A stretch of DNA of 28,021 nt from the IMG/VR virus record IMGVR_UViG_3300045581_000470, positions 1-28,021 of that record, one strand, 5' to 3'. The notes beneath the pieces are model-generated. The model searched no databases and was not told the DNA's origin. It saw only the letters and a list, made by a program, of their open reading frames with translations. Of the stretch, positions 12,820 to 27,467 are shown piece after piece. The DNA is from a virus. Position 1 is the stretch's first letter; each line of letters starts with the position of its first letter. The translations under genes and the position numbers were made by a program.

Positions 12820-12834
12820 TCAACCGTGGGGTTT

Positions 12835-13749
12835 ATGGCCGTCTCCCAGGCCGGGCTGACCGGAGCAGGACCGCAGGCGTCCCGTCGAGCGGCTCAAAAT
12901 TTGCCGTATTCAAACGACACGGCAACGAACTCTGGTGGCTACCGCATCCACACCTTCAACGACACGGGAACACTAAACGTCACCAAAGGTGGCTCGGGTG
13001 TTGAGTATCTAGTTGTCGCAGGAGGCGGCGCTGGAGGCCACAACGGTTCCGACAACATTGGTGAAGGTGGCGGTGGCGCTGGTGGCTATCGAACGTCGGC
13101 TGGCACGTCCGGCGGTGGCGCATCAGCTGAAACGGCGATCACCATCTCAACAGGAGTCAGTTACACCGTCACCGTCGGCGGCGGTGGAACAGCAGGAACG
13201 GGCGCAACTTCCTCAACCAGCGGAACAAACTCCACGTTTTCAAGTATCACTTCGACAGGCGGTGGCCGTGGCGGCGGCTGGGGAACAGCAACGTATTACG
13301 CACCTGAAACAGGCGGTTCAGGAGGAGGCGGCGGGTATGGCAACACGGCCGGAGCCGCTGGGACAGCCAACCAAGGTTACGCCGGAGGCACCTACCAAAC
13401 ACCCAACCCCAACTACGCAGGTCCAGGCGGCGGTGGCGCAGGAGCTGTGGGAGTAAACGGCGGCGCTGGTGGCACCAGCGTTCCTGGTGCTGGCGGCGCT
13501 GGCGTCGCATCGTCGATTACAGGTTCGTCCGTGACTCGAGGAGGCGGTGGCGGCGGCGGAACTCGAGCAGCCACCGGATACGGAGCTGGTGGTCTTGGCG
13601 GGACTGGCGGTGGAGGACAAGGCGCGGGAACCAATGGCGCAGGCGGCGCAGGTTCAGCGAATACCGGCGGCGGTGGTGGAGCAGCCACAGGAACGCTCGC
13701 AGCTGGCAACGGCGGTAAAGGTATTGTGATTGTCAGGTATCTCCAATGA
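12835..13749 (+). CDS. Glycine-rich adhesin-like protein, one module
   Basis: The 304-residue protein has a short N-terminal region (about 1-35) and one large glycine-rich module. The module opens with the strand pair HTFNDTGTLNV and VEYLVVAGGGAGG and closes with GGKGIVIVRYLQ. In between are long Gly-Gly-Gly-Ala and Gly-Gly-Ser runs broken by Thr/Ser strands, compatible with stacked polyglycine-type helices. Glycine-rich loops at phage tail tips (for example the T-even gp38 type) bind receptors, so an adhesin role is likely but inferred. ATG at 12835 is preferred because GTGGGG (12826-12831) can serve as ribosome site; a GTG at 12826 is the alternative. The stop overlaps the next start by ATGA. 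Confidence 0.82.
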   Translation: MAVSQAGLTGAGPQASRRAAQNLPYSNDTATNSGGYRIHTFNDTGTLNVTKGGSGVEYLVVAGGGAGGHNGSDNIGEGGGGAGGYRTSAGTSGGGASAETAITISTGVSYTVTVGGGGTAGTGATSSTSGTNSTFSSITSTGGGRGGGWGTATYYAPETGGSGGGGGYGNTAGAAGTANQGYAGGTYQTPNPNYAGPGGGGAGAVGVNGGAGGTSVPGAGGAGVASSITGSSVTRGGGGGGGTRAATGYGAGGLGGTGGGGQGAGTNGAGGAGSANTGGGGGAATGTLAAGNGGKGIVIVRYLQ

Positions 13750-15500
13750 GTGTCAAATCCGTTCGCCTGTCCACGCTCGGTGGCAACAATAAACTGAAAG
13801 ACCTACCGTGGCAAGCCCAAGCCACAGGAGGCGACACTGTCCTGCCGTACGCCGATGCTGACGGTCGCTTGTGGTGGGTGCACACGTTCAACAACTCCGG
13901 CACATTCACCCCGTTGAAGGAATTGACCGTCGATTATTTAGTCATTGCGGGTGGAGGCGCCGCTGGAGACGGAACTGGCGGTTACGCAGCCGGTGGTGGT
14001 GGAGCAGGAGGGTATCGTTGTACGGTCACCGCAACAGGTGGGGGTGGCACGCTCGAAAGTGCACGCACGCTTACCGCAGGAATTGCTTACACCTGTACTG
14101 TCGGCGGCGGTGGGGCGGTTGGAAGCAATGGTTCCAATAGTTCTATTAGCGGAACAAACTTGACAACAATTACATGTACCGGTGGCGGGCGAGGTGGCTA
14201 TCAGAGTGCAGTAGGAGTTGCAGGCGGCTCAGGTGGAGGCGGTTCACACAACGTAGGAAACGGCGGTGGGGCTGGAACCACGAATGAAGGTTACGCAGGA
14301 GGCGCGGCCGCCAACTATGACGGCGGTGGAGGCGGTGGCGCATCAGCAGTTGGTGCGAATGGAACGGGCGGCAGCCCAGGAAAAGGCGGCAACGGCGGTG
14401 CCGGACTAACCAACTCAATCAACGGCACATCAACTGCGCGGGGCGGTGGCGGAGCAGGTGCTGGTTATCTAGGAAATGGTGGCACCGCAACTGCAGGCGG
14501 TGGAAACGGAGGCGGTTGGACCGGCTCTGCATTTACGGCTGGGACAGCAGGCACCGACGGAACTGGCGGCGGTGGCGGTGGTGGTGTGAATGCAGGAAAC
14601 TCAAAAGCTGGCGGCAAGGGCATCGTCATCGTTCGTTATCCCGTCGACGGCCCGTTCGCTACCGGCGGGACGATCACTTCGTCGGGCGCGTATTGGGTTC
14701 ACACCTTCAACGACTCGGGCACGTTCACGCCGTTGCGGCCTATCGAGGTTGAGTATGTCGTCGTCGCGGGTGGTGGTGGAGGCGGTGATGCAAACGATGC
14801 CAATAATGTGCCCGGCGGCGGCGGAGCAGGTGGCTATCGCTCATCCGTCACGGGCGAAAACTCTGGTGGTGGAGCGTCAGCAGAAGCAAAAGTCACCGTT
14901 TCAACCGCCCAAACCGTGACAGTCGGTGCTGGTGGGGCAGCAAACACAACCGCATCTGGATCGAACGGCAGTAACTCCGCATTCGGTTCAATAACTGCAA
15001 CAGGTGGTGGTGGTGGTGGTTTCAACGCAGCAGGTGCGACCGGCGGTTCAGGCGGTGGCGGCGGCGGTGGCACCAACCCAACCAACGGTGGCGCAGGAAC
15101 AGCCAATCAGGGTTATGCGGGCGGTTCAAATGGTTCATCAACTGGCTACGCCGGTGGAGGCGGCGGTGGTGCATCGGCTGCTGGAGGAAATGGAACTGGA
15201 GGCACATCCCCAATTGGCGGTGCTGGTGGAGCTGGCGTATCATCGTCAATTACCGGGACTGCAACGACTCGCGCAGGAGGCGGAGGTGGAGCTGCTTATT
15301 CTGTTCCCGATTACACCTGGTTTGGCACCGGAGGTGCTGGCGGATCAGGTGGCGGAGGTGCGGGTGGGGCAGGAACTGGCAATGGAACTGCAGGAACAGC
15401 CAATACAGGTGGTGGCGGCGGTGGCGGTGGATCACAAAATCTTCCCGGCGGTTCGGGTTCTGCAGGCGCTGGCGGCAAGGGCGTCGTCATCGTTCGATAC
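12949..15500 (+). repeat. Three related glycine-rich coding modules
   Basis: Modules lie at about 12949-13743, 13881-14639 and 14700-15500, split over two genes. Their first bases (ACACCTTCAACGAC at 12950 and 14701) and last bases (GTCATCGTTCG near 14634 and 15495) are nearly identical in DNA, so they arose by duplication and can recombine. Confidence 0.75.
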
Positions 15501-15518
15501 TTGAAAACACAACGATAG
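13746..15518 (+). CDS. Glycine-rich adhesin-like protein, two modules
   Basis: This 590-residue protein carries two tandem copies of the module found in the preceding gene. After a unique N terminus (about 1-44), module one runs from about 46 to 298 and module two from about 319 to 585. Each opens with HTFN.SGTFTPL followed by a V-(D/E)-Y-(L/V)-V-(I/V)-A-G-G-G strand and closes with KG(I/V)VIVRY. Glycine makes up a very large share of both. The region between modules (about 299-318) looks like a linker. As with its neighbour, cell-surface binding at the tail or fibre tip is the most likely job. The repeats make this gene a good candidate for rapid domain gain or loss. It could also be a structural fibre cap. 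Confidence 0.82.
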   Translation: MSVKSVRLSTLGGNNKLKDLPWQAQATGGDTVLPYADADGRLWWVHTFNNSGTFTPLKELTVDYLVIAGGGAAGDGTGGYAAGGGGAGGYRCTVTATGGGGTLESARTLTAGIAYTCTVGGGGAVGSNGSNSSISGTNLTTITCTGGGRGGYQSAVGVAGGSGGGGSHNVGNGGGAGTTNEGYAGGAAANYDGGGGGGASAVGANGTGGSPGKGGNGGAGLTNSINGTSTARGGGGAGAGYLGNGGTATAGGGNGGGWTGSAFTAGTAGTDGTGGGGGGGVNAGNSKAGGKGIVIVRYPVDGPFATGGTITSSGAYWVHTFNDSGTFTPLRPIEVEYVVVAGGGGGGDANDANNVPGGGGAGGYRSSVTGENSGGGASAEAKVTVSTAQTVTVGAGGAANTTASGSNGSNSAFGSITATGGGGGGFNAAGATGGSGGGGGGGTNPTNGGAGTANQGYAGGSNGSSTGYAGGGGGGASAAGGNGTGGTSPIGGAGGAGVSSSITGTATTRAGGGGGAAYSVPDYTWFGTGGAGGSGGGGAGGAGTGNGTAGTANTGGGGGGGGSQNLPGGSGSAGAGGKGVVIVRYLKTQR

Positions 15519-15525
15519 GAAACAA

Positions 15526-15888
15526 ATGGCATACTTCGCACAAATTGACGCAGACAACATCGTGGTCCAAGTCCTCGCCGTCCCCGACGCCCAGGAACAT
15601 CGAGGCCAAGATTTCCTCGCATCCGACCTGCAACTCGGCGGCAACTGGATTCAAACCTCGTACAACCACCGCATCCGCAAACAGTACGCAGGCATCGGCT
15701 TCACGTATGACCCCGTAGCCGATGTATTCGTCGCCCCCCAGCCATTCCCATCATGGACCCTGGACGCCAACCACGACTGGCAACCACCCACACCACGCCC
15801 AGAAGACGGCAAATTTTACCGATGGGACGAACCAACCCTCACATGGATTGAAGTGGCCGAACCAGTATTGCCACCAACGCAGGAGTAG
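15526..15888 (+). CDS. Conserved phage protein of fibre region, unknown function
   Basis: This 120-residue protein begins MAYFAQIDADNIVVQVLAV and contains GGNWIQTSYNHRIRKQYAG at about 38-56 and a Pro/Trp-rich C-terminal half (PFPSWTLD, DWQPPTPRP, KFYRWDEPTLTWIEV). I recall this pattern as a widespread but uncharacterised family in aquatic phages, usually near structural genes. This is from memory. The first half looks like a small beta-rich domain, and the Trp/Pro repeats of the second half could bind glycans or other virion proteins. The ribosome site GATAGGAA lies just upstream of the ATG. It is the last gene of the receptor-binding block before a new promoter. Confidence 0.75.
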   Translation: MAYFAQIDADNIVVQVLAVPDAQEHRGQDFLASDLQLGGNWIQTSYNHRIRKQYAGIGFTYDPVADVFVAPQPFPSWTLDANHDWQPPTPRPEDGKFYRWDEPTLTWIEVAEPVLPPTQE

Positions 15889-15890
15889 TT

Positions 15891-15899
15891 TGCTAACCT
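15891..15899 (+). promoter_or_regulatory. Extended -10 promoter for the metallophosphoesterase group
   Basis: TGCTAACCT matches the TGnTAnnnT extended -10 pattern. A TTGCCA that resembles a -35 lies at 15868-15873, but the 20-nt gap is too long to rely on. Transcription would start near 15906, giving a leader of about 16 nt that contains the ribosome site AAAGGAGG (15909-15916). Confidence 0.4.
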
Positions 15900-15921
15900 G
15901 ACTCCCGCAAAGGAGGGGTCC

Positions 15922-16173
15922 ATGCCTGCCAACAAACAATCCCTGCTCGACAGCATCCTTGCCCACAACAAGGTTGTCAAAGGGCCACAATGCACCATCG
16001 CCACCACCCTGGCAAACCTGCCCAAAGATGACGCCGACGCCCTGATCCGAGTCCTAGCCGACCCGACCATCAGGACAACCGCCATCAGGCGTGGCCTGGC
16101 CGCCAACGGCATCAACCTTGGCGACACCACCATCGCCCGCCACCGGAAAGGCGAGTGCCTCTGTGGGTCTTGA
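15922..16173 (+). CDS. Small basic protein, possible DNA-binding helix-turn-helix
   Basis: The 83-residue protein is helical. The C-terminal half can be read as a helix-turn-helix: a helix at about 37-57, a turn at LAANGINLG, and a second helix ending ARHRKGECLC with a Cys pair at the very end. An interior Cys is present near 24. A similar His-Arg-(Lys/Arg)-Gly-(Glu/Asp)-Cys ending occurs in small actinophage proteins as far as I recall. It has the best ribosome site in the window (AAAGGAGGGG) and is first in a small operon with the metallophosphoesterase, whose GTG start overlaps its end by 11 nt. A regulatory or DNA-end-binding role is inferred. Confidence 0.65.
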   Translation: MPANKQSLLDSILAHNKVVKGPQCTIATTLANLPKDDADALIRVLADPTIRTTAIRRGLAANGINLGDTTIARHRKGECLCGS

Positions 16174-17233
16174 AGACGACATTCACGCAGCCAACGACGA
16201 CACCGAGAAGCTCCGCGCCCTGGTCATCCAGGCCCGCCGGGCTAGGGCATCAGCCGAGAACGCCAACGTCCACCTGATCGCCCGCGTCGAGGAACTGGAA
16301 CGGGCGCTCGAAATCGTCGACACCGCCACCACATCGGCCCTAGAACCCCCTAAATGGCTCTTAGAGCCACGATCCGGCCGGAAGAAGCACGCAACCCTCG
16401 TCCTGCTCCTATCGGACACCCACTTCGACGAGGTGGTCGACCCAACCGAAGTTGGCGGCCTGAACGCCTACAACCGCCGAATTGCGGAAATCAGACTTCG
16501 GGCATGGGTGGAGAACGCCACCAAAATGGCTCGCCACTACCTGGCCGGGGTCACCTACGACGGGGTGGTCTGCATGCTGGGCGGCGACCTGTTCTCCGGC
16601 GACATCCACGAAGAACTAGCCAACACCAACGAAGCCGTCATCTTGGAAAGCCTGCTCCATTGGTCCGAGCAGGTCGCAGCCGCGCTCGAGGTACTGGCCG
16701 GGGAGTTCGGCAAAGTCCACGTCCCCGTCGTCGTCGGCAACCACGGCCGCCAGTCCCGCAAACCGCGAATGAAACAACGGGCCAAAACCAACTATGACTG
16801 GCTGCTCGGCAAAATGCTGGAAAGACATTTCCACAATGACAAGCGGTTTACTTTCCAAGTAAGCGAAAACGCTGACACCCTGATCCCCATCTACGGGTTC
16901 GGCCATCTGCTGACCCACGGCGACCAGGTGTCCGGCGGCGGTGGCATCGGCGGCATCTGGCCCCCGATCATGCGGATGCGAGCCAGAAAAGCCCAGCGTG
17001 CGATGGATGTCGGCCAGCCATTCGACACCCTGTGGATGGGCCATTGGCACCAATACATCTCCACCCCCTACCTGGTCATCAACGGGTCCACCAAAGGGCT
17101 GGACGAGTACGCCTGGATCAACAATTTCGGCTTCGAGGTTCCCCAGCAGGCGTTGGCTATTGTGACCCCCGAGCACAACATCACCGTCCAAGCACCGGTG
17201 TTCTGCCAGGAACGAAAGAAGGAGAAATGGTGA
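16163..17233 (+). CDS. Calcineurin-like metallophosphoesterase with N-terminal coiled coil
   Basis: The 356-residue enzyme shows all five motifs of the calcineurin-like superfamily, which binds two metal ions and hydrolyses phosphodiester or phosphomonoester bonds. They are SDTH (84-87), GGD (140-142), GNHGR (192-196), THGD (251-254) and GHWH (293-296). The usual Asp/Glu after GNH is replaced by Gly. A charged coiled coil occupies about 12-52, ahead of the catalytic domain that starts near 77. The frame is open from 16091, but GTG at 16163 is chosen because GGAAAGGCGAG precedes it by about 7 nt and it limits overlap with the upstream gene. Substrate is unknown: nucleic acid (Mre11/SbcD-like), cyclic nucleotide or protein phosphate are possible. 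It lies between adhesins and lysis genes. Confidence 0.88.
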   Translation: MGLEDDIHAANDDTEKLRALVIQARRARASAENANVHLIARVEELERALEIVDTATTSALEPPKWLLEPRSGRKKHATLVLLLSDTHFDEVVDPTEVGGLNAYNRRIAEIRLRAWVENATKMARHYLAGVTYDGVVCMLGGDLFSGDIHEELANTNEAVILESLLHWSEQVAAALEVLAGEFGKVHVPVVVGNHGRQSRKPRMKQRAKTNYDWLLGKMLERHFHNDKRFTFQVSENADTLIPIYGFGHLLTHGDQVSGGGGIGGIWPPIMRMRARKAQRAMDVGQPFDTLWMGHWHQYISTPYLVINGSTKGLDEYAWINNFGFEVPQQALAIVTPEHNITVQAPVFCQERKKEKW

Positions 17234-17532
17234 GCATCGACCGGCACATCGTGGAAGCCCACGAATGCGTCCCCCCGGTTATTTCCCGTTTCTGGCCCGA
17301 TGTCGTCCCCCTCCATGCCATCGTCATCATCGACGTAATCAACGAACTAGGAAAGCGAGAACTGCTCGTTATGACCGACTCAGAACAGCCGCCGTGGATG
17401 GCGTCAGGAATGCTCGGCCTCGTCAAAGCCGATGTCGATACCGACTGGTCCCATAACCCGTACGAGTACGACGGTGAAGACGACGAGGACGAGGACGACG
17501 ACGAGGACGACGACGACTATGACGACGAGTAA
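17227..17532 (+). CDS. Small protein with extremely acidic C-terminal tail
   Basis: The 101-residue protein has an ordinary mixed alpha/beta body (about 1-75), including a hydrophobic stretch VPLHAIVIIDVINEL near 26-40. It ends in a tail in which nearly all of the last 24 residues are Asp, Glu or Tyr. Such tails occur in DNA mimics, histone-like-protein antagonists and metal-binding proteins; none can be chosen here. AAGGAG (17219-17224) precedes both possible starts, ATG 17227 (spacing 2) and GTG 17230 (spacing 5). Protein and neighbours are little affected by the choice. The start overlaps the metallophosphoesterase stop, so the two are translationally linked. No family recognised. Confidence 0.75.
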   Translation: MVSIDRHIVEAHECVPPVISRFWPDVVPLHAIVIIDVINELGKRELLVMTDSEQPPWMASGMLGLVKADVDTDWSHNPYEYDGEDDEDEDDDEDDDDYDDE

Positions 17533-17665
17533 AGCCGGAATCAAACTCAGCAGAGCCGACACGCTCACGACCCTCAAGTTCCTCTCCCGAGCCATCCCCA
17601 AGGGGCAGCTCGAACAAGACGAACTGTACGCCGTTATCGCCAAACTCGAACGCCAACTCAAATGA
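17519..17665 (+). CDS. 48-residue helical protein of unknown function
   Basis: This short gene begins inside the last codons of the acidic-tail gene (overlap 14 nt) and uses the GAG/GAC-rich tract as its ribosome site (GAGGA at 17503-17507, 11 nt upstream). The product is basic at the N terminus and helical throughout (SRADTLTTLKFLSRAI, then ELYAVIAKLERQL), suggesting a small helical hairpin. The frame is open further upstream from 17432, but that would give a low-complexity Thr/Arg run that merely mirrors the acidic tract. Function unknown. The position suggests it works with the acidic protein or the metallophosphoesterase. Confidence 0.5.
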   Translation: MTTSKAGIKLSRADTLTTLKFLSRAIPKGQLEQDELYAVIAKLERQLK

Positions 17666-17686
17666 CTGGTAACCGCAGTACCCATT

Positions 17687-17695
17687 TGGTATGGT
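17687..17695 (+). promoter_or_regulatory. Extended -10 promoter before the holin-like gene
   Basis: TGGTATGGT fits TGnTAnnnT. The start of transcription, about 7 nt downstream, would fall at 17702-17703, exactly on an ATG with no ribosome site, which suggests a leaderless message. No -35 is visible. Confidence 0.38.
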
Positions 17696-17702
17696 TATGG
17701 GC

Positions 17703-17915
17703 ATGACAGCCAAACTGATTGCCATTAGAACGGCGAGCGCATTCGTCCTTGCGGCGACCTCAACCATTCCCCTTGGCGCAGTCATGGACGTCGCCGTCTG
17801 GAAAACAGCAGTCATGGCCGGGGTGGCCGCGGTGCTGAACATCCTTCACAAACTTGCCAAGGCATACCGCGACGGCAAGCTGACCCCAGAAGAACTACCC
17901 CAAATCTTTGAGTGA
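17703..17915 (+). CDS. Holin-like small membrane protein
   Basis: This 70-residue protein has two hydrophobic stretches, about 4-27 (LIAIRTASAFVLAATSTIPLG) and about 32-50 (VWKTAVMAGVAAVLNILHK). A charged C-terminal tail ends KLTPEELPQIFE. That is the size and layout of a class II-type holin, which makes holes in the inner membrane at a set time and lets the endolysin out. The endolysin lies 0.26 kb downstream, which supports the call. Three in-frame ATGs are present (17691, 17697, 17703). None has a good ribosome site, and 17703 coincides with the predicted transcription start. Topology and role are inferred. Confidence 0.65.
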   Translation: MTAKLIAIRTASAFVLAATSTIPLGAVMDVAVWKTAVMAGVAAVLNILHKLAKAYRDGKLTPEELPQIFE

Positions 17916-17928
17916 AAGGACACCTGCC

Positions 17929-18159
17929 GTGTCAAACATTGTCGTCGCCACAGTCCACTTCCACATCCCCGTGGACAACCTCCCGCCGGACATCCCCGGC
18001 ACACCCGAAACACCGGAAACCGACGCCGAACTTCCGATGACCGGAGCTGAGATTGTCGCATCCGATTTCGTTGCCAAGATCATGCAAACGTTGCCGACTG
18101 GCGTGTACCCCATCCTGGCTGACACCACACATTTCAAGGCAGAACGCACACCGTTCTAA
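17929..18159 (+). CDS. Small acidic protein of unknown function in lysis cassette
   Basis: The 76-residue protein starts at GTG 17929, with GAAAGGA (17914-17920) as ribosome site 8 nt upstream. It has a beta strand with VATVHFHIPV near 5-14, a Pro/Thr/Glu-rich linker (about 18-37) and a helical segment with ASDFVAKIMQTLPTGVYPI (about 46-64). No signal peptide or membrane segment is seen and no family is recognised. It sits between the holin-like gene and the endolysin and so may modulate lysis or be a leftover moron gene. Confidence 0.6.
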   Translation: MSNIVVATVHFHIPVDNLPPDIPGTPETPETDAELPMTGAEIVASDFVAKIMQTLPTGVYPILADTTHFKAERTPF

Positions 18160-18160
18160 C

Positions 18161-18169
18161 TGCTAAGGT
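18161..18169 (+). promoter_or_regulatory. Extended -10 promoter before the endolysin gene
   Basis: TGCTAAGGT fits TGnTAnnnT and begins right after the preceding stop. The expected transcription start (about 18176-18178) coincides with the ATG of the endolysin, suggesting a leaderless or near-leaderless message. AAGG inside the box could also act as a ribosome site for read-through transcripts. Confidence 0.38.
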
Positions 18170-18177
18170 TCGCATTC

Positions 18178-18636
18178 ATGGCGAACCGCAAATACACAGG
18201 CTTTGACAAGGCTGGAAAGGGCACCGCCCCCGGCCTGAAAGCGTTGATGGACACCATCCTGTTCTTCAACGCAGGAAAAGTGTCCAATCTCGGTACTTTC
18301 ATGCTACGAGACATGAAAGGCAAGCCCGGCAAGCCGTCCGTCCACAGCACCGGCCGTGCGGGCGACATTGGCTGGACCGACCGGGCCGCCATCGAAGGCG
18401 TCATCAACTGGCTCGTCACCAACGCCGACCTGCTCGACATCGAGTATGTGGCCGACTACTTCCCCGCCCCCGGCGGCCGAGGCTGGAAATGCAACCGCGG
18501 AGCCTGGTCCACCTACAAGAAAGGCCAGATCGCCGGTGCCCCTGGCGGCAAATGGATTCATGTGGAAGTCGGCCCCCGCCTCGGGTTCGACAAGGCTGGC
18601 ATGGAAGCCGCCATCAAAGAAAGTTTCGCCGCATGA
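18178..18636 (+). CDS. Endolysin, M15-type peptidase
   Basis: The 152-residue enzyme is a probable cell-wall peptidase of the M15 (D-Ala-D-Ala carboxypeptidase / L-Ala-D-Glu endopeptidase) type, which cuts peptidoglycan peptides. The zinc-binding signature S-x-H-x-x-G-x-A-x-D is present as SVHSTGRAGD (54-63, ligands His56 and Asp63). The second His is in GKWIHVEV (His128), matching the W-x-H element. The single-domain length is normal for phage M15 lysins, but no separate cell-wall-binding domain is visible. It has no signal peptide, so it needs a holin, and membrane proteins flank it on both sides. Its stop overlaps the next ATG. It could instead be a virion-associated wall enzyme, but the cassette favours lysis. 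Confidence 0.85.
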   Translation: MANRKYTGFDKAGKGTAPGLKALMDTILFFNAGKVSNLGTFMLRDMKGKPGKPSVHSTGRAGDIGWTDRAAIEGVINWLVTNADLLDIEYVADYFPAPGGRGWKCNRGAWSTYKKGQIAGAPGGKWIHVEVGPRLGFDKAGMEAAIKESFAA

Positions 18637-21593: not shown

Positions 21594-24500
21594 GTGGCTG
21601 AAACACCCAAACCGACCAGCGTTGCCATCACCGGGCGACCCTACGCCGCCCCCAGGTTGACAGCACCACGCCCCACCGCAGTAGCACCACAACCCGCCAC
21701 GGCGCTCCCAGCACTACCTCGGTTGCGTCCTGCTGGCCTGCCGAAAGTGTCTGCAGCCCAACTCGGCGGTGGACGAGTGCAACGCAAGGGCGACGACAAG
21801 GGCATCATCGGTGGATTGCTTTCAATCCCCATGTCGGCCGCCAAAGCCATCGGCGCAGGCATCGCCGCCGTCCCCCAATTCGTCGGCAAAACAGCACAAA
21901 CCGCATACGGATTTGGTGAGGGTCTAGTTGACCTCAGCCTCGACCTGATTGACGAAGACATCTTCAAGAGCCGATTCGAGACAGACCTAGAGCGTGGTCG
22001 TGAACTCGGCCTAGAGGGCGACGCCCTTGTCGCATACGCAGGTCAACGCCAGTATCCACTCGGAAGCATGATTATTCAATCCGGTGCCGCGACAGGCCGC
22101 CGCGTTGGTGAACTCGCAACTGCGGGGGCATACGACACCGGCGAAGAAGGAATTGACTACGCACGCGCCCTACGGCAAGGCGACCTTGGCGCACTACTCG
22201 TCGAAGATGTTGGCAATGTCATCCTCGCCGGTCGTGCTGCTGGGCTGGGCAACGTCGTCGCTCGAGCAGGCGCTGCCGTACCGGGTCGCACCGGTCGCGT
22301 TATTTCCACCACCGGCCGACTGATTGAGGAACCAATCGCCACAACCACCCGTGGCGTAGCCCGCGCCACCGGAGCAGGAGCACAACGAGCAACAGGGCGC
22401 TTGGCGCCATTGGGCGCCATAGTTGACCCAGCAGAACGAATCAGCCAAGCTGAGCGGCCGTTGCGCCAAATCGTCAACGAGATACGCGACATCTACCAGG
22501 AACGGCGCGAAGGACAGTTGGCGGAACTTGATACCGAGATTGCCAATCTGATCGAACAGCGTGACGCGGCAGACATCATGGGCGACACAGCCCGACGCGA
22601 AGCCATTCAAGAGGACATCAACAAGAAGCAGCAAGAACAGGGCCGTGCGCTCGAGGGAACAGGTGTCGTCAAATACGCCCGTCGTATCGTCAAACGGTGG
22701 ACCATCGCATCCGAACGTGATCGCCAAACACTCATCGCCCAGTTCGCTCGCGTGACCGACCGTGGCGCCGCCCCCGAAAAAGTCGCCACCTACCGCAGTC
22801 GAGCGGAACGTCTACGCCGCGAAGCCGAAGCCGCGACCGACGCAGTAACTAGGGAACGCAAGACAGCCGAAGCAGTCGCTAACGAAACGATGGCAAACCT
22901 AAAGGAACAGTTCCCCGAGGAATTTGACAAGCCGTTAGACCCCACCACCCAGGAAGCCGCAATCCACTACGGCACCCGTAAAGCCATCGTCCTGTACGAG
23001 TTGGCAAAGCGTGGCTACACGACCGAACAGTTGGTGCGAGCCGCCACCGACCCGACGATCACGCCATACCTGGCCGAACGCGGCTTGCAGCCGACAGCCG
23101 AAGGCGTGCTGAAAGCCATTGAGTATGTGAAGGCACAGCGTGGCGAACCGTCCACTCTGAACGCCGCCCAAATCTTCAGCCTTGATTCTGTTTACAGCCT
23201 AATGAAGCGGTGGAACGACTTCATGACCACTGCGATGGGGCGTGGCGAAGGAATGCCGCAAGGCCCGGCGCCGTTCTACTGGTTCCAGACATTCCCGGTA
23301 CCGCACTATCTGCTACCACTAATAGATGCCCTCAAGAATGAGCGTCAACTAGCTATCTTGTCCCAGCTGGATAACGCCGCAGTTATGTTGATGGACAGCC
23401 TCGTCCGTTCGGGCCTGACTGACATCTTCGAAACCCTCAAGATTGACCCCGAAAATCCGCAGGGGGCGTGGCGCAAACTGGTCAAGGACGGCTTGGCCGA
23501 ACTGGAAATCAAGGAGAAGCAAGGCCAGTCGTTGGCCTACCGCATCGCATTCGGCGCACTTCAGTTGTCATACAGGCGTCTGCGCGAACTCGAACCAGAC
23601 CTGATGCTGAACCCCGAGATTTATCCAGCGACTATGCGGCCGATGATTATCACTCTGCGTCAGGCAGTCCGTGGCGTCACCGGCGAAGACGTGCGGATGA
23701 TGGCCGACCAGTTGATGACTCTCGCCCGCGACTACGGCGACATCATCCCCGGCCGAACCTTGGATGCCATCGCTCGAGACATCGGCATCGCCGTTGATCC
23801 TCAGCGTCGAATCACCAAGGAAGCATGGCGTCGTCTCCGTAATCGCATCGTCCAAGTCCAAGAGACAGCGACCGCACGAAGCCGCGAACTGGGCAACATA
23901 GCCGCGGAATTGACCGCACAGCAACAGAACGAATTGGCCGCCCTCAACGCCATTGCCGAACAGTTGGGTGGCGTAATGATGGCCGTCGATCAGATCGTGG
24001 AAGCTGGCCCGCAGCCAACCACCCGCCTGATCCGTGCCCGCGGTCGCCTGAAGGAAGCCGAAGCCCGCCAAGCCGAACTTGCTACCGAACAGGCTGCAGT
24101 TGGCGCCGACATTGAGGCGGCGGCAGAAGCACAGATCGCCGGACAAACCGACCTACAGGCCGAAACGACACGACTCCGTAGCGACTACGACACCCGCCAA
24201 GCGAAGGTGGCTGAACTACAGGACGAACTTGATGCCGCCGAATCTGGTCTAGCTGACCTGGGCGGCGCACTTGACCGCTTGGATCGCCTGGCCGCAGAAG
24301 GCATTGACACCCTTGCCATCTTCGAGGATTTGGCTATCGCTACGGATGTTGCCCGGTCGACAAGGGAACGCCGGTCCTATGTAACTGACAACCAAGCTCG
24401 AGCCGCCAGACAAGCCGACGTGGCATTGAGACAAGCTGAGGTTGATGCGGCGTTTGCATCAGTTGAAGAAATACTTGGTGGCGGGAAAATTCTGCGAGAC

Positions 24501-27467
24501 ATTACGGCAGATGATCCAAGATACCCGCGCAGAGACCAGTTTGAACTCGCCGAACAAGAAGACTACCAAGCCGCCATTCAGCAGGGTATTGGCCCGTACC
24601 CTGACAATGCTGAAATTGTGGACGCTTTCATGGAAGCACACACGGAATACGCCACTTCAAAGACCGTAGACGAAATCGCAGCTGACGCCGTTGATGACCA
24701 GTGGCGTGAAATGGACGCGGGTTCTGTACTAGAAGAAGTCGCACGCCGATTCGCCATCCAATACCGCGCTGAACAAGCATTGAAGAAAGCTAAAAAGCGC
24801 ACGATCAAGTCCTACAAACAGGAACTGCTGGCCAGTGTTGCAAGCGCCGTTGACGACGCAGTATCTGCGAAAACCCGCACGGGCCTGACCTTGACCCAGT
24901 TGAACCAGTTGCGCGAGTTACTCGACCCAGAAAAACGAGCGTTCGCCGTCAACCTTCGCAACGCCACACAGCGTCGCATCGAAACGCTCCGCCAGCAGAT
25001 CGCAGACGAACGCCGTGCGCTTGCCGGAATGCGCCGTGACCTAGCCGACGCTGAAGGCGCCCTCCTGGTTCGGACGCCCGGTGAACTAGTCCGTCGCCGT
25101 CAACAGGTGCGTGCCGAACAGAAGAAGGTCACCACGCAAATCCCGCGTCTGCGTCGAGGCGTCGGGTTTGCTGAACGGGCCGAACCTGCTGGGGCTATCG
25201 CCCAAGAGCGTGGGTCGCTACGACGCATTGTTGACATCCGCCGTCCTGCTGCTGGCGCCGAAGGGCCGACGCTGGTACGCATGCAACCGAGGTTGGTGCG
25301 CCGTGCTGCAGCCAGTATGGAGAAACTGAACGCCAAGCAGGAGCAGACAGTCAAGCGTCTCAAGGTGCTGAAGGGTCGCATTGCCGAACAGGACGCCTTG
25401 GCATCGGCGGCCGACATTGCTAACGAAATCGTCACCGGCGAAGTTCGTCGCCCCAGCCTCATCGGCCCTGAAATGCCTCTCGGCCCCGAGATGCTTCGCC
25501 CTGGCGAGGAACCCTTGTACCTGCCCGCTGGCCCGCGCCGATCCGTTCTGCCGTCCCGTGATGTCACCTTGCAGATTCGAGGCGAAGGCGCCGCCCCGCA
25601 AACCAGGTTGCAGGCGACACAACAGCGGTACTCGGGTGCGTTTGAGTTGACTCTCAACGGTCTGATCGGCCGCATGAACGAAGTGCTCGGCCAGATGTAT
25701 CGCAACAGCGCCGTTGAGGAACTGATCGTCGATCCGACTGTTGCCCAGTCAGCTGGCACATTGTTGACACCGGATCGTTACGCCCAGATCGTCGCTGATG
25801 CCGAACGTGCCGTAGCAGAACAAGGTATCGACCGAACCCAACCGGAGTTCAACGCGGCCGTCAAACGGCAGGTCGGTACCGTCGTCCTACGCGAAGTGGA
25901 CAAGGCAGGCTACGAAGTCGTCAGCCCCGTCAAGATGGACCCCGACCGCCAAGGACACGAACCAGTTGGTGACCTTCAGCGAACCGTCAGCCCTGACGCC
26001 GTGGACGAGAACAGCATCGTCATGCGAAAGGGTATGGCCGAACGACTGTTCTCAGAGTTTGAACGCAAGTACGCACGCCAGTTGCCGGTCGCCGTTGACC
26101 GCGTCCTGAGTGGCCTGGGTGATCTGACATCCCGATGGAAGTCGCACATTCTTCCCATCTCGCTTCGGTGGCAAATTGGCGACGCCGTCGGCATTGCCAT
26201 GTTCGCCTGGATTCGCGGCGACATTCCGCCCCGCCAGTTGGCTGCTCGCATCCGTGAAGTCGTCGGCCGCATGACCGACCCCAACGATCCGCGTCTCGGC
26301 ACCATCCTGTTCACCGACCTTCTCGGCCAGCCACTCACCGACCCGGTGCTCGCCGCAGGATTCGGAGCTGCGCTCCAGGCTCGAGGAATCAAAGCCGAAG
26401 AAATCCGCTTCATTGAACTCCAAGCCGCACGCCTCACCGGCGAACAAGTCGCAGTCGGCAGGTTCAAGCGGTACGACCAGTTCCGCAACAAGGCGTTCCG
26501 TCTCAACGAAGCCATCAACAGCATCGGTCGTGCCGCCGTTTACATTGAAAACCTGGATCGCATCCTGACCGAAAAGGGACGGTCGCTTGACGAAGTCAAC
26601 GGCCCGAACACCTTGAACGATCCCGAAATCACAACCGCCATTCGTGAAGCCGTCGACGCCGCCAACAACACGCTCGGCGCGTTCTCCGACCTGTCACCGT
26701 GGGAGAAGCAGGTTCTCCGTAAGGTGTTCCCGTTCTGGTCGTGGATCAAGTTCATCAACAAGGCCGCCTACGAGTTGGCCATTGACCAGCCTGACCGCGT
26801 CCTGTTCTACGCCCACCTTGGCTCCATCGCCGCAGACCCCGACGGTAACGACCTGTCCGACTGGCTCCGCGGGAAGACACCGATCATGGGTGCCCTGTAC
26901 GACCTAAACTTCCTGAACCCCTATCAGGACGCATTCCTATTCAAAGGCAACCCGTTCACTTCATCAGCAGAAACATTTACCCAGTTCAGCCCCGCATTCG
27001 TGGTTCCGGCCACAGGAGTTCAGGAGCTGTACTTCTCCCAGACGGGACGTTTCCTGCCACTGTTCCCCCGCCTCTCACGCCCCGGCTATCTCGAAGGCCG
27101 ACCCGAAGCCACTACTCGAGGCATGGGTGATGTGCTCGGCGGTATCGGATACACCGCCCTGACCGGCCTCGGTGGCCCGCTTCGCAACGTCCTCCAGCTC
27201 CTGCCCGAAGGCACGGTGCCGTTTACTGATGTCGCCACCGGCCCGGTCCAGCGTTTCCAACAAGGTTCGCTCCGTACCACCGGTGCCTATGCAGAGCCAC
27301 GCCTCGGCCCGATCACCGGCCGACTGGCCGCCCTCGGTCGTACCTTCGGCATCCCGGCCCCACTTATTGAGCAGGACATGGCGAAGAAGCAGGCCGAGGA
27401 ACAGGCGCAACGCGACCAAGCCGCACGCCTCCGCAGAATCAAAGAACGACAGCGAGCAGGGCAATGA
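21594..27467 (+). CDS. Giant internal virion protein, 1957 residues
   Basis: This is the largest gene of the window. The likely role is a head-internal protein ejected to carry the genome across the cell envelope, as with T7 gp16-type proteins. Evidence is size, position and structure. A Pro-rich basic N terminus (1-65) leads to a Gly/Ala hydrophobic region (about 68-240) with possible amphipathic helices. Long coiled coils follow near 290-350, 755-900 and 1119-1190. A mixed region (about 1250-1600) precedes a helical C-terminal domain with PWEKQVLRKVFPFWSWIKF (about 1701-1719). The final 30 residues are a charged, basic helix. I see no lytic transglycosylase, protease or nuclease motif, so it may be purely structural. 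Start is GTG 21594, 2 nt after the previous stop. It ends in ATGA with the resolvase. Confidence 0.8.
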   Translation: MAETPKPTSVAITGRPYAAPRLTAPRPTAVAPQPATALPALPRLRPAGLPKVSAAQLGGGRVQRKGDDKGIIGGLLSIPMSAAKAIGAGIAAVPQFVGKTAQTAYGFGEGLVDLSLDLIDEDIFKSRFETDLERGRELGLEGDALVAYAGQRQYPLGSMIIQSGAATGRRVGELATAGAYDTGEEGIDYARALRQGDLGALLVEDVGNVILAGRAAGLGNVVARAGAAVPGRTGRVISTTGRLIEEPIATTTRGVARATGAGAQRATGRLAPLGAIVDPAERISQAERPLRQIVNEIRDIYQERREGQLAELDTEIANLIEQRDAADIMGDTARREAIQEDINKKQQEQGRALEGTGVVKYARRIVKRWTIASERDRQTLIAQFARVTDRGAAPEKVATYRSRAERLRREAEAATDAVTRERKTAEAVANETMANLKEQFPEEFDKPLDPTTQEAAIHYGTRKAIVLYELAKRGYTTEQLVRAATDPTITPYLAERGLQPTAEGVLKAIEYVKAQRGEPSTLNAAQIFSLDSVYSLMKRWNDFMTTAMGRGEGMPQGPAPFYWFQTFPVPHYLLPLIDALKNERQLAILSQLDNAAVMLMDSLVRSGLTDIFETLKIDPENPQGAWRKLVKDGLAELEIKEKQGQSLAYRIAFGALQLSYRRLRELEPDLMLNPEIYPATMRPMIITLRQAVRGVTGEDVRMMADQLMTLARDYGDIIPGRTLDAIARDIGIAVDPQRRITKEAWRRLRNRIVQVQETATARSRELGNIAAELTAQQQNELAALNAIAEQLGGVMMAVDQIVEAGPQPTTRLIRARGRLKEAEARQAELATEQAAVGADIEAAAEAQIAGQTDLQAETTRLRSDYDTRQAKVAELQDELDAAESGLADLGGALDRLDRLAAEGIDTLAIFEDLAIATDVARSTRERRSYVTDNQARAARQADVALRQAEVDAAFASVEEILGGGKILRDITADDPRYPRRDQFELAEQEDYQAAIQQGIGPYPDNAEIVDAFMEAHTEYATSKTVDEIAADAVDDQWREMDAGSVLEEVARRFAIQYRAEQALKKAKKRTIKSYKQELLASVASAVDDAVSAKTRTGLTLTQLNQLRELLDPEKRAFAVNLRNATQRRIETLRQQIADERRALAGMRRDLADAEGALLVRTPGELVRRRQQVRAEQKKVTTQIPRLRRGVGFAERAEPAGAIAQERGSLRRIVDIRRPAAGAEGPTLVRMQPRLVRRAAASMEKLNAKQEQTVKRLKVLKGRIAEQDALASAADIANEIVTGEVRRPSLIGPEMPLGPEMLRPGEEPLYLPAGPRRSVLPSRDVTLQIRGEGAAPQTRLQATQQRYSGAFELTLNGLIGRMNEVLGQMYRNSAVEELIVDPTVAQSAGTLLTPDRYAQIVADAERAVAEQGIDRTQPEFNAAVKRQVGTVVLREVDKAGYEVVSPVKMDPDRQGHEPVGDLQRTVSPDAVDENSIVMRKGMAERLFSEFERKYARQLPVAVDRVLSGLGDLTSRWKSHILPISLRWQIGDAVGIAMFAWIRGDIPPRQLAARIREVVGRMTDPNDPRLGTILFTDLLGQPLTDPVLAAGFGAALQARGIKAEEIRFIELQAARLTGEQVAVGRFKRYDQFRNKAFRLNEAINSIGRAAVYIENLDRILTEKGRSLDEVNGPNTLNDPEITTAIREAVDAANNTLGAFSDLSPWEKQVLRKVFPFWSWIKFINKAAYELAIDQPDRVLFYAHLGSIAADPDGNDLSDWLRGKTPIMGALYDLNFLNPYQDAFLFKGNPFTSSAETFTQFSPAFVVPATGVQELYFSQTGRFLPLFPRLSRPGYLEGRPEATTRGMGDVLGGIGYTALTGLGGPLRNVLQLLPEGTVPFTDVATGPVQRFQQGSLRTTGAYAEPRLGPITGRLAALGRTFGIPAPLIEQDMAKKQAEEQAQRDQAARLRRIKERQRAGQ

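Follow-up and report, generated by a model that had tools for sequence, protein, structure and literature searches.

A small basic protein gene paired with an MRE11-like metallophosphoesterase gene in phages: a candidate two-subunit nuclease

The sequence analyzed here, hereafter the window, is a virus fragment of 28,021 bases. In the window, the gene for a basic 83-aa protein lies directly upstream of, and overlaps, the gene for a 356-aa metallophosphoesterase. The pairing is conserved among relatives of the enzyme, whose active site is intact and whose fold is that of a phosphoesterase. It is likely, with a probability of about 0.6, that the two proteins constitute a two-subunit DNA nuclease; its probable use is in the recombination or repair of phage DNA. 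The sequence-only reading of this locus had proposed an undescribed system of four genes. The pair is not of an undescribed kind, because it is present in hundreds of actinobacteriophage records, where the annotation of the enzyme is that of an MRE11-like nuclease.

The two genes are the first of four consecutive ORFs on the + strand, each of which overlaps the next, by 11, 7, and 14 nt in order (Table 1). Upstream of the four ORFs are glycine-rich tail-fibre-like genes and a 120-aa gene of PHROG 7759. Downstream are a weak holin match (17691) and a 152-aa gene (18178). In our own reading of its sequence, the 152-aa gene appears to encode an M15-peptidase-like SxHxxGxAxD ... WxHxE motif; no profile match was obtained for this reading. 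Two tail-fibre-like proteins (307 and 590 aa; window 12826-15518) are very glycine-rich and repetitive, with repeated GGGGAGG-type segments. The largest gene of the fragment, a 1957-aa ORF at 21594-27467, has no PHROG match.

Table 1. Coordinates of the four overlapping ORFs and associated features in the window.
Feature	Position	Strand	Evidence
Strong Shine-Dalgarno region (GCAAAGGAGGGGTCC context) of the 83-aa gene	15908..15921	+	Duplex energy, sequence
83-aa basic helix-turn-helix-type protein, proposed DNA-binding subunit	15922..16173	+	Pairing, profile, AlphaFold
11-nt overlap; GTG start of the enzyme within the last codons of the 83-aa gene	16163..16173	+	
356-aa metallophosphoesterase, GTG start, PHROG 284 'exonuclease', proposed catalytic subunit	16163..17233	+	Profile, metal ligands, fold
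Enzyme residues 3-57, forming the N-terminal coiled-coil helix	16169..16333	+	AlphaFold secondary structure
101-aa protein ending in an acidic tail; companion specific to the lineage	17227..17532	+	23/81 loci
48-aa helical protein; companion without a fixed link to the nuclease	17519..17665	+	46/81 loci

The sequence-only reading was correct about the four overlapping genes and about the strength of the first ribosome site. The duplex between the 83-aa gene's ribosome site and the anti-Shine-Dalgarno sequence has an energy of -12.3 kcal/mol, the best among the 26 window starts tested. The separate promoter claimed for the set is not supported, since the gap from the preceding gene is 33 nt and a search for promoters of the sigma-70 type saw no such site in 15400-18300. 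The third codon positions are the most divergent in the 83-aa, enzyme, and 101-aa genes, and these three genes are thus probably translated and under selection. Their dN/dS values are about 0.36-0.73, 0.15-0.25, and 0.13-0.24, respectively. For the 48-aa ORF, one comparison gave a dN/dS of about 0.45, which is weak coding evidence; its status as a gene appears less certain than that of the other three, although a relative is present in 46 loci.

The conservation of the pair was evaluated in 81 loci, the window and 80 IMG/VR relatives of the enzyme; the counts are not independent, because some relatives are overlapping contigs from the same phages. In 77 of the 81 loci, the window included, an iterated profile search identified a member of the 83-aa family as the gene immediately before the enzyme. 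The four loci with the enzyme and no 83-aa gene (L039, L040, L041, and L043) form one close group. Clades differ in whether the lysis genes come before or after the enzyme, and the gene pair stays together in either case. The earlier view of a DNA-binding-type protein and a phosphodiesterase-type enzyme as a set holds, DNA processing being the likely role. The same reading had held that an enzyme occurring without the other genes would speak against a functional unit. The acidic-tail and 48-aa genes do show such separation, whereas the small basic gene does not; just the 83-aa and enzyme genes are consistently together.

The overlap between the two genes is 4, 11, 14, or 17 nt among the relatives, and the enzyme always starts at the same residue. 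Both possible frame offsets occur, 4-nt ATGA overlaps versus 11-, 14-, or 17-nt GTG overlaps, depending on the clade. A programmed frameshift joining the two ORFs is therefore unlikely, as the frame offset differs between clades while the start residue stays constant, and stop/start coupling is the simple reading. One contig (IMGVR_UViG_3300025732_000085) has two enzyme genes near its ends (L010 586-1653 and L014 6001-7068), each with its partner. The two enzymes are 94% identical, and the arrangement could stem from assembly or from tandem duplication if the genome is circular.

The remaining two genes are lineage-specific accessory companions, and a four-gene cassette was rejected. The acidic-tail family is present in 23 of the 81 loci, in 21 right after the enzyme and in two about 0.5 kb away. 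The tail described earlier is present in the window, with 19 D/E among the last 24 residues of the 101-aa protein. Its length is variable (6 to 23 acidic residues among the last 24), and it is long solely near the window. The tail is encoded by a slippage-prone GAC/GAG near-repeat (17460-17532), part of which is shared with the beginning of the 48-aa gene. PHROG matches of the acidic-tail protein (best E 0.005) and a Pfam 'LAT' match were disregarded, the latter being driven by low complexity. The position of the 48-aa family is not fixed; among its 46 loci, about 34 have it downstream of the enzyme and 12 about 1.6-1.9 kb upstream, beside lysis genes. Other clades carry a different small protein, with a WxDAH ... 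VLxIPxxMV pattern, after the enzyme (L026 7047-7412; L039, L049, and L018), indicating that this slot holds exchangeable genes.

The enzyme matches PHROG 284 'exonuclease' with an E value of 7.8e-43 over residues 42-347. The complete five-motif phosphoesterase and its added coiled coil, both pointed out in the sequence-only reading, were confirmed. Eight metal ligands (D85, H87, D142, N193, H194, H252, H294, and H296) are invariant in 53 relatives, and the AlphaFold model (pLDDT 89) consists of a 55-residue N-terminal helix and a phosphoesterase domain. The closest solved folds are the 3'-5' exonuclease DP1 of DNA polymerase D (Z 16-18), followed by Mre11/SbcD (Z 13-14). LpxH and Vps29 are also near Z 13-14, and thus the fold alone is insufficient to fix the substrate. 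No match was found with the sequence profile against PDB, or with PADLOC models and NCBIfam.

Relatives of the enzyme in bacterial genomes and other phages mostly have 40-100 extra N-terminal residues. Ten such fused relatives were scanned, and their N-termini mostly gave weak helix-turn-helix (HTH), zinc-ribbon, or ParB-like matches, of which only one passes the Pfam cut-off. In cyanophages and Bacteroides phages, the enzyme gene sits among genes for ExoVIII, annealing/SSB proteins, polymerase, and helicase. No assay of a purified PHROG 284-type enzyme was found in the open-licence literature. MRE11-like homologues have been overexpressed in M. smegmatis in three screens of mycobacteriophage genes; Hammy gp34 is strongly toxic (PMC10700055), and Amelie gp31 (PMC11797047) and Waterfoul gp34 (PMC9339283) are moderately toxic. 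Waterfoul gp33, which from its size and gene order is probably the small partner, is mildly toxic (PMC9339283).

The AlphaFold model of the 83-aa protein (pLDDT 77) has five helices. Its fold matches are weak (Z up to 4.2) and include transposase HTH and Fur domains; nothing was above noise in the PDB fold search, and the search of BFVD returned uncharacterised phage proteins only. Members of the family match Pfam at E 0.003 or worse. Because the Pfam and PDB matches are not above noise, the proposed DNA binding rests on the helical pattern and on annotation. Homology to the N-termini of the fused enzymes was looked for, and none was detected.

Among cultured phages, the pair is present in those that infect Mycobacterium, Streptomyces, Cutibacterium, Gordonia, Pontimonas, and one freshwater actinobacterium. 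In cultured actinobacteriophages, the enzyme is annotated as "MRE11 double-strand break endo/exonuclease" (SEA-PHAGES) and corresponds to PHROG 284. Most upstream partners are annotated as "hypothetical" and correspond to PHROGs 1738, 3979, and 1923, all of 'unknown function'; these are three of the four PHROGs matched by most members of the 83-aa family, and the window protein itself has no PHROG match. In some records the partner is already named 'helix-turn-helix'.

A tblastn search of 50,697 phage records with the 83-aa protein alone matched five records, of Pontimonas phage phiPsal1 and Gordonia phages Phendrix and GodonK. Each of the five matches lies just before a gene annotated as a repair endonuclease, exonuclease, or metallophosphoesterase. 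The GodonK enzyme found 805 records, mainly of Mycobacterium, Propionibacterium/Cutibacterium, and Streptomyces phages. The 83-aa profile is matched by the small genes that precede the enzyme in Jayhawk, phiHau3, Pound, Guey18, PHL009M11, GodonK, phiPsal1, and DSL-LC01 (E 2e-25 to 0.0024 for the eight partners; above 1 for three unrelated control genes). Catfish and KashFlow were held out, and they match the profile rebuilt with the other partners at 6e-8 and 2e-12. Olliecat and Hortus1 have no such gene before the enzyme; their enzyme has an extra N-terminal segment with HTH-like sequence. Records with the partner versus records with the enzyme number 233 versus 233 for Propionibacterium/Cutibacterium, 172 versus 174 for Streptomyces, and 268 versus 308-321 for Mycobacterium. 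The lower partner count in Mycobacterium is probably due to Pound-type partners too divergent for BLAST.

The gene order in mycobacteriophage Jayhawk, whose pair is gp34/gp35 (lysin A, lysin B, holin, membrane protein, small gene, enzyme) is much like that in one clade of the window relatives. Elsewhere, the pair is between the protease and the major head protein (GodonK) or after primase genes (phiHau3). In many cultured homologues, D-x-Q replaces the D-x-H of motif I; several of these are from actinophages (L200 2252-3397, L199 4245-5414, and L085 1535-2551). With this first metal-binding motif altered, their use of metal or their activity may be different. No paper describing the pairing was found among open-licence papers.

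In the proposed nuclease, the catalytic subunit would be a dimetal phosphoesterase of the Mre11/SbcD/DP1 type whose N-terminus is a coiled coil. Most distant relatives have a DNA-binding-type extension at the N-terminus that this enzyme lacks, and the 83-aa protein would supply that function. Translational coupling through the stop/start overlap would make both subunits together, and the small subunit would bring the complex to DNA. In recombination, repair, or replication, the complex would then trim or cut the ends or intermediates of the phage DNA. The physical complex, the binding of the small protein to DNA, DNA as the substrate, and the role in recombination or repair are what we infer from the pairing, the pairs in cultured phages, the fused DNA-binding-type N-termini, the gene neighbors in cyanophages and Bacteroides phages, the fold, and the toxicity of homologues. 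Counting against this proposal are the small protein's lack of Pfam or PDB matches above noise, the fused N-termini that are not recognisably homologous to it, the four relatives with the enzyme alone, D-x-Q in many cultured homologues, and the position of the window pair, next to lysis genes and not in a recombination module. If the proposal is true, PHROGs 1738, 3979, and 1923, which occur in hundreds of actinophage genomes including those of Mycobacterium and Cutibacterium phages, would acquire a testable function as DNA-binding subunits of the adjoining MRE11-like nuclease. Biochemistry on the enzyme alone, as it is annotated today, would miss half of the nuclease.

It is fairly unlikely that the pair is instead a nuclease directed at the host, which would damage host DNA early and shut off host functions or defence genes, with the small protein targeting host DNA or shielding phage DNA. 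The position among tail and lysis genes would suggest late, not early, expression; no paper on transcription timing in cluster K phages was found among the open-licence literature. PADLOC gave no match, and neither D29 gp54 (PHROG 221), which we take to be a Bxb1 gp47-type phosphoesterase, nor D29 gp66 (PHROG 547) matches the enzyme profile; both are taken as representatives of the A10ZJ24 gp48 type. A10ZJ24 gp48, a different mycobacteriophage phosphoesterase, breaks down DNA in vitro, attacks the DNA of the host in vivo, and is required to overcome defence (PMC12287305), and by this analogy an anti-defence role of the pair is possible. The toxicity of the window-enzyme homologues in M. smegmatis (PMC10700055, PMC11797047) points the same way. 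Toxicity can also be read as a sign of an autoregulated operon, in which the small protein would be a repressor that keeps a toxic nuclease low and not a subunit of it. A small HTH-type gene overlapping and upstream of a gene toxic when overexpressed alone resembles such operons. This reading is improbable, as the gene order and the tight stop/start overlap are kept across the very different promoter contexts of GodonK, Jayhawk, and phiHau3, and the DNA-binding-type module within the same chain of distant enzymes fits a subunit better. The putative small partner Waterfoul gp33, assigned from size and order, is itself mildly toxic.

The least expected role is in genome packaging, with a small protein resembling the terminase small subunit and an enzyme that trims genome ends. 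The small gene is labelled terminase small subunit in DSL-LC01 and CAP 9-2, and PHROG 426, the family of that subunit, weakly matches 10 of 36 members of the 83-aa family (best E 0.0024). Staphylococcus phage CF9 and Synechococcus phage S-CBS2 have the enzyme close to their terminase genes. This role is nevertheless very unlikely. PHROGs 1738 and 3979, the nuclease partners, match the family better, and most pairs are far from terminase genes. The window 83-aa gene is 14 kb from TerL (310-1881), and its product has no match to this or any other PHROG. TerL has its own small gene directly before it, an ORF of at least 103 aa that is cut by the window start (2-313), has no PHROG match, and is probably the small terminase subunit. 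A broader version of the two-subunit nuclease is speculative and has little chance of being correct: a conserved Mre11/DP1-type catalytic domain would be served by interchangeable modules for DNA recognition, either in the same chain or as a separate coupled subunit, and would cut phage or host DNA at targeted sites or structures, and the acidic-tail protein would be a DNA-mimic brake in this lineage.

Among characterized proteins, the best fold match to the enzyme is DP1, the proofreading 3'-5' exonuclease subunit of the archaeal DNA polymerase D, which aligns over 237-240 residues. It differs in that the window locus has no polymerase partner, the identity is 15%, and no sequence-profile match in PDB links the two. 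Mre11/SbcD shares the phosphoesterase fold and the metal ligands; however, no Rad50/SbcC gene adjoins the window enzyme, whose neighbors are tail-fibre, holin, and peptidase-type genes, none of them an ATPase of SbcC size. GNHD is usual in Mre11, whereas the window enzyme has GNHG. The mycobacteriophage proteins A10ZJ24 gp48 and D29 gp54 are also phage metallophosphoesterases, and the DNase activity is theirs (PMC12287305). They are different in being standalone proteins of about 255 aa from another family, represented here by D29 gp54, which is in PHROG 221 and does not match the enzyme profile; A10ZJ24 gp48 has been aligned and grouped with Bxb1 gp47-type phosphoesterases (PMC12287305). A10ZJ24 gp48 shows that a phage phosphoesterase is usable against the host, which is a precedent and not a proof for the window enzyme.

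Prophages, cyanophages, and Bacteroides phages carry fused PHROG 284 relatives that share the catalytic domain and the coiled coil (28-50% identity), but those with HTH, zinc-ribbon, or ParB-like modules carry them in the same chain. The closest correspondence is with the MRE11-like enzymes of actinobacteriophages (PHROG 284/SEA-PHAGES), which have the same enzyme family (E 8e-43), a small gene directly upstream, and an overlap of 4-17 nt. In cluster K mycobacteriophages, the pair is likewise located after lysis genes. The window enzyme is distant from the cultured ones, with weak profile matches for most and 24% identity to that of DSL-LC01, and it is distinguished from them by the canonical D-x-H in motif I, the coiled-coil N-terminus, and the acidic-tail gene that comes next. 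While the kind is known from annotation, what is new here is the pairing of the small gene with the enzyme and its spread across several phage groups.
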